Source: Thermodesulfobacteriota bacterium (GTDB lineage: Bacteria; Desulfobacterota; Desulfobacteria; Desulfobacterales; JAUWMJ01). From it: a stretch of 64,000 nt of DNA. The position numbers were made by a program, and so were the translations under genes. The stretch lies in the NCBI GenBank assembly GCA_034189135.1, contig JAXHVO010000070.1, positions 1 to 64,000 on the forward strand, in the 5' to 3' direction. The notes under the pieces are model-generated. The model was not told where the DNA came from and made no database searches. It saw only the letters and a program-made list of their open reading frames with translations. This document shows positions 3,882-60,385 of the stretch, in pieces (position 1 is the stretch's first letter; each line of letters starts with the position of its first letter).

Positions 3882-3943
3882 CCCGGCGGAGCCACTCACC
3901 AGTTTTAAATAGAAGCAGCTTGTTTTTGTGCAATGCGATACTG

Positions 3944-4066
3944 TTGCGGGTTTCGGGTTGCGTGTTTCGGGTTACGTGTTACGTGTTACGGGTTGCGTGT
4001 TTCGTGTTGCTAATCGGAAGGCTTATCTGAATTTTAGACCCGCAACTCATCACACGGAACACTGAG
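3944..4066. repeat. Palindromic 7-mer array, locus A
   Basis: Nine consecutive heptamers of consensus TTDCGKG run from 3944 to 4006, with a partial tenth to 4010. After 28 bases the opposite strand carries four heptamers (4039-4066, reading TTGCGGG, TGATGAG, TTCCGTG and CTCAGTG on the minus strand). The structure is therefore a large imperfect inverted repeat built from degenerate short tandem words. It lies between the convergent CLC and truA genes. See the related loci B to G. Confidence 0.8.
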
Positions 4067-53243: not shown

Positions 53244-54539
53244 ATGGAATTCAGTCACCTTATTATCCTGCTGATTCTTTTAGGATGCATGGCAACCTAT
53301 ATTCCTGTGTTCATGTGCCTTTTCTTTACAGCGGTACTGGGATTTATTTTTTTTACCGACCTGCCGCCTCTCCTTCTTGCCCAAAGCCTCTTCAGGAGTA
53401 TGGACAAGTTCGCCCTTGTTGTTGTTCTCTTCTTTATATTATGCGGCAATATTATGACAGCCGGCACTATTGTGGAAAAGCTTATCAAAGTTGCAAATTC
53501 ACTTGTGAGCTGGCTTCCCGGCGGTCTTGGCATGGCCGGTGTTTTAGCATGCGGGCTGTTCGGTGCCATCTCAGGCTCAACAGTAGCAACTGTGGTGGCC
53601 CTGGGCGGATTTATGATTCCGGCTCTCCTCGATAACGGATACCCGGAAAAATACACTCTTGGTCTTATGACCACATCTCCTAATCTGGGTGTGATTATTC
53701 CTCCGAGTATCGGGATGATTCTTTACAGCATGATCAGCAATGTATCTTTGGAAGGGCTGTTTTTGACCGGCTTTCTCCCCGGGATTTTGATCATTCTGGG
53801 CACATGTTTTTATTCTTATTTCTTTTTTAGAAAAAAGAAAGAAATCGTTCGTATGCCGGTACCAAGTAACAGGGAAGTTCTGGCTGTATTAAAAGAAGGA
53901 TTCTGGTCACTCATGTTGCCAATTATTATCTTTGGCGGGATTTTTTCCGGTGCTTTCACTGCCAATGAAGCCGCTGTTGTGGCCTGTGTCTATGCCTTTA
54001 TTGTGGAGATTTTTATACACAAATCCATGAAACTGAGCCAGGCAAAAAAGATTACAGTCAATTCTGCCGTGACATCTGCAACTCTTTTGATCATCGTGGC
54101 AGGGGCTACCTGCTTTGGACGGCTCCTCACTCTCGAAGATATCCCAGGAAAGATCACCGAAGCCGTGCTTGCAGCAATCAGCTCACCTGTTGTTTTCCTT
54201 TTAGCTATGAATGTTCTGCTTATTTTTATAGGTATGTTCATGGATATCATTTCTGCAACAATGATCCTGGGTCCTGTATTTTTGCCCATGCTGGATGCAT
54301 TTAATATAAGCTGGATGCATTTTGGTTTGATTATGACGGTAAACCTTGGTATCGGGTATTGTACACCTCCCATGGGAGTCAGTTTATACATTACAGGAGC
54401 TATTGCCAACAGGGATATTGTCTATGTGTCCAAGGCTGTCATGCCGTTTATCGCTATACAAATTGCCGTATTGCTTTTTATGACATACATGCCTGATGCG
54501 GTTTTATGGCTACCAAAGGTTATGGGTTTCTTGGAATAA
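53244..54539 (+). CDS. TRAP transporter large permease (DctM), system 1
   Basis: 431 residues with about 12 membrane segments. Typical DctM motifs are GAISGSTVATVVALGGFMIPAL, SPNLGVIIPPSIGMILYSM and TANEAAVVACVYA. It uses sodium or proton gradients to import the compound caught by the periplasmic protein. The operon continues to an ACT protein 42 bases later. Confidence 0.93.
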   Translation: MEFSHLIILLILLGCMATYIPVFMCLFFTAVLGFIFFTDLPPLLLAQSLFRSMDKFALVVVLFFILCGNIMTAGTIVEKLIKVANSLVSWLPGGLGMAGVLACGLFGAISGSTVATVVALGGFMIPALLDNGYPEKYTLGLMTTSPNLGVIIPPSIGMILYSMISNVSLEGLFLTGFLPGILIILGTCFYSYFFFRKKKEIVRMPVPSNREVLAVLKEGFWSLMLPIIIFGGIFSGAFTANEAAVVACVYAFIVEIFIHKSMKLSQAKKITVNSAVTSATLLIIVAGATCFGRLLTLEDIPGKITEAVLAAISSPVVFLLAMNVLLIFIGMFMDIISATMILGPVFLPMLDAFNISWMHFGLIMTVNLGIGYCTPPMGVSLYITGAIANRDIVYVSKAVMPFIAIQIAVLLFMTYMPDAVLWLPKVMGFLE

Positions 54540-55068: not shown

Positions 55069-55161
55069 CAGTTGTCGGTTTACAGTTCTCAGTTTTTCAA
55101 TGAATTTGTGATGCCTTTCGTTTATTTCAACGGTGAACCGCTAACTGTAAACCGTGATCGG
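55069..55161. repeat. Palindromic 7-mer array, locus E
   Basis: The left arm 55069-55096 is four heptamers (CAGTTGT, CGGTTTA, CAGTTCT, CAGTTTT). The right arm 55127-55161 gives five on the minus strand, including CGGTTTA and CAGTTAG. The consensus is CRGTTNN. It lies in the ACT protein to sensor kinase gap, 55014-55267, in which I see no other feature. Confidence 0.7.
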
Positions 55162-59090: not shown

Positions 59091-59216
59091 GACCGGTTTG
59101 TCAAATGGTTTACGTCGAACCCGGGGTTAAATATTGGTTCCTACTTTCATGATTGTTTATGAATTGTCTTCCGATTAGTTGTAGTTAATTAAGGCAAAAC
59201 AAATGGGTTGTTCCAA

Positions 59217-59651
59217 AGGATTCAAGGGGTCAGGGATTCCAGGATTCGAGTGATTTTTCATAGAACAGGGGAATATGCTATAGAATTATAAAGAGTTGAA
59301 AGTCTGGCAAAAGTCATACCAACTCCGTTTAGAGATATATAGAATAACGGCAAAATTCCCAAAAGAAGAAAGATACGGTCTGACTTCACAGATCAGAAGA
59401 TCGGTTGTTTCTATTCCTTCAAATATAGCAGAAGGATATGGAAGAAAGACAACCTTGGATTATATTAGAATGCTTTACATATCTTATGGCTCTGTGTGCG
59501 AATTGGAGACACAGATATTATTAGCAGGGGATTTAGATTTAATTTAAAAAGATGAGTTGAGTACCCTGAACAAAAACATAGCGGAAATCGAAAGAGTGTT
59601 AAAAGCACTGATAAAGTCTTTAGAAAACAAACCCTTGAATCCTTGACCCCT
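59217..59651. repeat. Palindromic 8-mer array flanking an S23-type gene, locus G
   Basis: The left array 59217-59256 is octamers such as AGGATTCA, AGGGGTCA and AGGATTCG. The right array 59628-59651 reads AGGGGTCA, AGGATTCA and AGGGTTTG on the minus strand. The arms enclose the broken four-helix-bundle gene, whose last codons lie inside the right arm. Confidence 0.75.
59275..59646 (+). pseudogene. Broken four-helix-bundle protein gene (S23 / 23S rRNA intervening-sequence type)
   Basis: The readable part, LKVWQKSYQLRLEIYRITAKFP then SQIRRSVVSIPSNIAEGYGR, is the hallmark of the four-helix-bundle (S23/IVP, Avd-like) family. Two in-frame stops break it: TAG at 59281, early after the presumed ATG at 59275, and TAA at 59545. 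Beyond the second stop the frame continues as KDELSTLNKNIAEIERVLKALIKSL, exactly the expected last helix, to a stop at 59644. It is therefore an inactivated full-length gene of about 123 codons. A shortened protein from TTG 59296 is possible but would lack the last helix. Confidence 0.8.
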
Positions 59652-59689
59652 CTTTTCCAACCAAATTGGAGAAGAACCTTGTTTATTAT

Positions 59690-60137: not shown

Positions 60138-60385
60138 TTGACGATTTGAGATTTAAGATTTAAAGAAATAAAAGGTGTAACTATTCACGTAGTCAGGCTG
60201 AAGCTGTTTAGATTGAAGGCTGAAGGGGCCATAAGAGCAAGATTGCCGTGTTTTGGCGGAATGTGATTCTCACAACAAACATGGCTTAATAATGAGCTTT
60301 TTCCTAACAATCTTCAACCTTCAGTCTATCCACCTGAGTATAGCGTCTTATATAAATCTTCAATCCACCATCGTCAATGTTCAAT
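60138..60385. repeat. Nested palindromic 7-mer arrays, locus F
   Basis: The outer arms are 60138-60165 (TTGACGA, TTTGAGA and others) and 60351-60385 (ATTGAAC, ATTGACG, ATTGAAG on the minus strand). The inner arms are 60193-60228 (AGGCTGA words) and 60306-60337 (AGACTGA, AGGTTGA on the minus strand). Most of the 430-base gap between the thioesterase and TRAP operon 2 is thus occupied. Confidence 0.6.

Follow-up and report, generated by a model that had tools for sequence, protein, structure and literature searches.

The window, a 64,000-nucleotide stretch of DNA, carries on its forward strand a decayed gene of the S23 (four-helix-bundle) family, set between inverted octamer arrays, TIRs and an 8-bp direct repeat. 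Profile searches identify the open reading frame at 59275–59646 as a genuine member of PF05635 and TIGR02436, scoring 132.7 bits against the former (cut-off 33.8) and, with its stops read through, 131.5 bits against the latter (cut-off 24, E = 1.3e-38). A four-helix-bundle gene with two nonsense codons had been seen here in an earlier note on this DNA, and both codons are present, TAG at 59281 and TAA at 59545. The adjoining genes are protein genes, and no rRNA was found between positions 54000 and 64000; the element is not an insertion in a 23S rRNA helix.

59153–59160 (no strand): target duplication, left copy, TTGTTTAT, 8 bp; perfect repeat, at the same offset in other copies
59161–59184 (+): left TIR, GAATTGTCTTCCGATTAGTTGTAG (family consensus GGATCATCTCCCGATTAGTTGTAG); end common to the copies in the same genome
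59217–59250 (+): left array, about four degenerate octamers (AGGATTCA/AGGGGTCA/GGGATTCC/AGGATTCG) followed by AG; word common to S23 relatives elsewhere
59275–59646 (+): S23 (four-helix-bundle) gene, decayed; matches PF05635 and TIGR02436, with open homologues in relatives
59281–59283: first nonsense codon of S23, TAG
59545–59547: second nonsense codon of S23, TAA
59632–59651 (−): right octamer array, CCCTTGAATCCTTGACCCCT, inverted relative to the left array; contains the last S23 codons and stop
59644–59646: final stop of S23, TGA, within the right array
59652–59678 (−): right TIR, also a palindrome; found 17 times in the genome; reverse complement GGTTCTTCTCCAATTTGGTTGGAAAAG
59679–59686 (no strand): target duplication, right copy, TTGTTTAT, 8 bp

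Because the final TGA lies inside the right array, the last S23 codons are part of that array, as the earlier note had observed; the gene also ends within its right array in 74 of 141 loci elsewhere. The inverted arrangement of the arrays holds as well, with 22-nt arms that are 86% complementary and a perfect 13-nt pair. Local alignment of the 220 bp upstream with the reverse complement of the 220 bp downstream gives this copy an arm score of 16, only just above the 99th percentile of controls (15), while a paralogue (L001) scores 21. The limits proposed for the mobile unit, 59217–59651, proved too narrow. The full element spans 59161–59678 and consists of imperfect TIRs, subterminal inverted octamer arrays and the decayed S23 gene, with the perfect repeat TTGTTTAT directly abutting both ends.

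Gene-bearing copies aligned within the source genome have sharp common ends that lie well outside the arrays. These ends are of the GGTTCTTCTCCAATTTAGTTGG type, with the TIR consensus pair GGATCATCTCCCGATTAGTTGTAG / GGTTCTTCTCCAATTTAGTTGGAGAAG, which agrees at about 18 of 24 positions in our own alignment of the two consensus ends. The 17 genomic occurrences of the right end, at up to three mismatches, compare with none for a reversed control pattern. When ten copies were compared at fixed offsets with the common ends as anchors, the flanks repeated at seven or more of eight bases in nine of the ten, versus one of 90 mismatched flank pairs; the direct repeats at other copies include TAAATTAA, TAACATGT, TAAAATAT, TATTTATT and GAATATCT, besides near-perfect ones. 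It is these direct repeats, at a fixed offset from common ends, that define the element as 59161–59678 and the 8-bp repeat as its target duplication.

S23 copies are numerous in the source genome, and most are decayed. Three copies are gene-less internal-deletion derivatives of 122–182 bp, every one with its own 8-bp duplication. L066 and L067 measure 122 bp between the anchors and L061 measures 182 bp; all retain both ends and short arms and have lost most or all of S23. Since L066 and L067 share the internal deletion junction CAAGCTTGGACCCTC, the gene-less form itself has multiplied. Within 1.5 kb on each side in this draft genome (95.5% complete), paired ends of the window family enclose no more than about 600 bp, and the search turned up neither an autonomous parent nor a copy in which such ends flank a transposase gene.

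The arrangement extends far beyond this family. Of 247 Desulfobacterota genomes sampled, 138 have S23 matches, and 106 S23 loci from this phylum have a median arm score of 22 and a main period of 7, compared with 9 for slid windows (99th percentile 15) and 9 for mismatched pairs; 82% of the loci exceed the 99th percentile of the slid-window controls. A held-out set of 54 loci, six of them from viral contigs, gave a median of 21, scores above 15 in 78% (0% of slid windows) and a best period of 7 in 48. With L001 and the 106 and 54 loci elsewhere, the inverted-arm pattern is far beyond chance. Overall, inverted arrays, mostly of 7-mers, accompany about 80% of the S23 genes that lie outside rRNA, versus 0–1% of controls, and the earlier note's proposal, which would have failed had most homologues lacked such arrays, survives on this point. 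Arms are weak or absent at about 20% of loci, and no rRNA match was found at 18 weak-arm loci. All 12 plasmid loci (ten cyanobacterial, one from Riemerella and one from Gemmatirosa) display the layout by eye; one query of 50,697 phage records returned no S23 match.

The arms most often comprise four to five words (mode five), in the large family as in the remaining ones, with arrays of fewer than four words under-detected in this count. Of 44 clusters, 42 have the G-rich strand of the arms pointing inward; a unit on a viral contig (L433) is an exception, with the C-rich strand inward. AGGAG-like words often stand in left arms directly upstream of the S23 start codon. The left arm may double as a ribosome-binding site, which could account for the G-rich inward polarity. 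A tandem cluster of near-identical decayed S23 units and their arms, with the CGAGGACTGAGGACTGAG word, was seen at G259:C1:3065483-3086641 (L389, L390), where no rRNA match was found.

The arm word tracks the S23 subfamily rather than the host genome, across at least ten phyla. In a cross-arm test of 199 loci, in which the left arm of one was compared with the right arm of another, a score of at least 16 was reached by about 3% of pairs whose proteins are less than 45% identical, 52% of those with 55–65% identity, 69% at 65–75% and 91% above 90%; pairs of unlike S23 proteins within one genome reached it in about 1% of cases. One large family makes up most of the 65–75% bin, and smaller families behave alike. 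For one Nostoc S23, relatives that share its TCAGRAG-type word occur in Cyanobacteria, Desulfobacterota, Bacteroidota, Ignavibacteria, Chloroflexi, Planctomycetes, Nitrospirae, Verrucomicrobia, Acidobacteria and Firmicutes, and the window octamer likewise recurs in close S23 relatives from several other genomes. The S23 elements are a very widespread class in which each subfamily has its own 7–8-bp word.

Filled and empty sites are found in several cyanobacteria, and the earlier note's idea of a mobile unit, which an immobile locus in all relatives would have overturned, is upheld. An S23 unit lies between cas10 and cmr3 in Picosynechococcus PCC 7003 and is missing from PCC 7002. On Nostoc plasmids both states occur where traM adjoins the following gene, and again at two neighbouring junctions within an operon. 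Another S23 gene, on a Nostoc plasmid (L160), holds an inserted gene-less unit about 190 bp long. Comparison of Trichormus plasmid C with Nostoc linckia (flanks 99% identical) reveals an insertion with a 5-bp duplication, GTAAT, and comparison of Dolichospermum L212 with L285 a duplication of 12–13 bp. The only clean empty site for L212 is in G299 (L285), with G311 nearly clean; G304, G306, G307 and G314 were dropped as empty sites on re-inspection. The dispersed copies with sharp common ends, the 8-bp duplications at fixed offsets, the filled/empty pairs and the arms that follow S23 subfamilies across phyla demonstrate that gene, arms and ends form a single mobile unit, inserting whole.

The duplication length varies by family (8, 5 and 12–13 bp); the window family alone has a fixed one, of 8 bp. 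Within the TCAG family, array-edge duplications of at least 6 bp were not significant overall (9 observed vs 5.6 expected), although individual cases, L212 (12–13 bp) and L141 (5 bp), are clean. Because the lengths differ and the TCAG family falls short of significance, a single mechanism for all families has not been shown. Dolichospermum comparisons over 400 kb contain many small insertions, but clean S23 arrays suited to the analysis of duplications are few. S23 units were also seen at CRISPR loci: L145 and L147, on plasmids of Pseudanabaena galeata and Anabaena sp. 90, have units with differing words at about 2501–2869, occupying the same site in two genera, with cas6 and cas4 of a type I-D locus on either side, and at a type III-B locus (L146) a unit separates cas10 from cmr3.

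Several further arrays in the window have no gene:

3942–4010 (+): tandem array of heptamers with the word GGTTRCG, that of S23 element L005
13339–13415 (no strand): gene-less inverted heptamer unit, GGTTGCG word, of the L005 family; matches the L005 arms on both strands
55069–55160 (no strand): putative gene-less inverted heptamer unit, ACAGTT/ACGGTT word; found by eye, with one weak arm match
60190–60345 (no strand; approximate limits): putative gene-less inverted unit with the word GGCTGAA, shared with S23 elements L026 and L030; found by eye, below the arm-match threshold

The earlier note had called such arrays deletion derivatives or relatives of the window element. They are relatives of S23 elements and not deletion products of this one, because they belong to other S23 families; derivatives of the kind envisaged exist elsewhere in the genome (L061, L066 and L067). 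The L005 word is represented in the source genome by one S23 gene and about 35–40 gene-less array loci. In Dolichospermum, nine of 16 genomes have 50–71 arm matches each.

The S23 protein is under purifying selection (median dN/dS 0.14 over 57 pairs), and Gln34, Ser41, Asn45, Glu48 and Glu71 of its domain are near-invariant. Both flanking genes run in the same direction as S23 at 122 loci and both in the opposite direction at 5; since the units sit in sense orientation in codirectional gene pairs, expression of S23 from the host operon is probable, though inferred. Two solved homologues have five chains per structure entry, which does not prove a pentamer in solution, and the match between a pentamer and the word count of the arms is suggestive only.

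Our preferred reading, to which we assign a probability of about 0.66, is a small transposon-like element in which an S23 pentamer binds the cognate arms and a transposase supplied in trans cuts. Mobility and the identity of the unit are established; binding by S23 and the transposase are inferred. The pentamer would recognize the arms with roughly one word per subunit, for which there are no binding data, and would bring both element ends together. Cutting and joining would fall to the transposase, none having been found; its supply in trans would account for the TIRs and the 8-bp duplication. By inference too, proteins made elsewhere would mobilize the copies that lack the gene. Y1 transposases proved uninformative, being present in 16 of 16 S23-rich genomes and also in 52 of 58 others.

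The TIRs and 8-bp duplication are also what any transposase-moved element would have, and the main rival explanation is that S23 is a passenger or accessory gene, the arrays and TIRs being parts of a MITE whose transposase ignores S23 and the agreement of word and protein reflecting common descent. We regard this as unlikely, while acknowledging that gene-less copies multiply and that S23 copies in the source genome are numerous even though most are decayed. However, the layout, polarity and length of the arms are constant around S23 in dozens of subfamilies despite very different words, and the gene is under purifying selection; a passenger need not stay tied to the ends so long. Alternatively, the arms might pair in the transcript and RNase III excise the unit from host mRNAs, which would render insertions between genes harmless. 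The sense orientation of S23 units within operons, folding of the element better than that of shuffles (z = −4.2) and the occurrence of S23 as the protein of rRNA intervening sequence (IVS) elements (PMC4990558) are in keeping with this idea. It is nonetheless improbable: G-U pairs are not in excess of A-C mispairs between the arms (290 vs 281, p = 0.74), so pairing in sense RNA is not visibly maintained, rRNA is lacking at the window locus and at the 18 weak-arm loci, and the 8-bp duplications are left unexplained.

A retroelement nature of S23 elements, with the reverse transcriptase borrowed as by Avd, a distant S23 relative, in diversity-generating retroelements, is very improbable. The duplication length does differ between families, as with target-primed insertion, and there is weak similarity to the Avd model, but its 34.6 bits fall short of the Avd cut-off (DivGenRetAVD, 80), no RVT_1 match was found in nine of the 16 genomes with at least five S23 genes, the source genome included, and S23 and reverse transcriptase are uncorrelated (rho 0.04). 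One relative genome (G050) contains 43 reverse-transcriptase matches, most of which agree in both score and frame length, marking the burst of a single reverse transcriptase-bearing element. Polymerase slippage, to which heptamer over-representation has been attributed (discussed in PMC4692102), would make the arrays simple sequence repeats unconnected with S23. This can practically be dismissed, given that the arrays are inverted on either side of S23, with one word in both arms, and that the word is also common to related S23 genes in other phyla.

The transposon-like S23 element resembles several known systems without coinciding with any of them. Its short length, TIRs, target duplication, gene-less internal-deletion copies and lack of a transposase gene recall MITEs. 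The window family meets two MITE criteria, TIRs (imperfect) and a fixed-length 8-bp target duplication, and fails that of no coding capacity, as full-length copies have S23 and only the derivatives are non-coding. No ends matching a transposase-bearing element were found in the 1.5-kb flanks of the draft genome. Unlike a MITE, the window element has a conserved non-transposase gene and subterminal arrays cognate to that gene. With REP/RAYT systems it has in common a protein gene between short inverted repeats and numerous gene-less copies in the genome; in contrast, S23 is not a Y1 transposase, the arms are tandem 7–8-mers and target duplications are present. The single Y1 match of the source genome is on a contig other than that of the window.

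In Coxiella burnetii, the 23S rRNA IVS has an S23-family gene between inverted repeats (PMC4990558). The two share this arrangement and a suspected mobile origin, whereas the S23 element lies outside rRNA with arms of degenerate tandem 7–8-mers and the IVS has one 28-bp stem; the window element, moreover, has TIRs and an 8-bp duplication and gives no sign of selection for RNA pairing. The mobility of S23 units is in line with an old conjecture in which a mobile element gave rise to the 23S intervening sequences.

'Four helix bundle protein' is a frequent and unexplained annotation, and heptamer repeats are without an agreed origin. The tie between S23 and heptamers offers a testable function for S23, arm recognition, and allows heptamer arrays to be read as footprints of mobile elements; the dozens of protein/word pairs are material on how a small protein reads a 7–8-bp word. 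We found no paper linking S23 genes to flanking heptamer arrays among open-licence full texts, an absence that is not proof of novelty.

The STRRs of heterocystous cyanobacteria are bacterial heptamer repeats. TAACTGA heptamer repeats have been reported without S23 (PMC4679880), as have GGGAATC repeats of Xanthomonas, with 70–75 convergent pairs and no mention of S23 (PMC4692102); neither is tied there to S23 or to a mobile element. All three resemble the arrays described here in being intergenic, degenerate tandem 7-mers with many copies per genome, a description met by the related S23 families and not by the octamer element itself, and the GGGAATC convergent pairs have the polarity of S23 arms. 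The S23 element can account for many scattered bacterial heptamer repeats. The link has been shown for several words, not for TAACTGA or GGGAATC; the Xanthomonas S23 protein XCC0516 (PDB 2gsc), which was not found among the plasmids, viral contigs and sampled phylum, is predicted to have GGGAATC-like arms. A more far-reaching reading makes S23 elements a distinct class of mobile DNA: mobility would rest on the S23 pentamer, with its near-invariant residues, working on ends built of its cognate tandem words, and bacterial heptamer repeats at large (STRR, TAACTGA and GGGAATC) would be such ends and their gene-less descendants. This is a tentative proposal that we hold to be possible but doubtful. 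Many small insertions were seen in Dolichospermum G304, G307 and G314 (L309–L368), and in some Dolichospermum insertions heptamer runs lie inside larger MITE-like units (AGTAGGTTGGCG ... ACCTACT ends).
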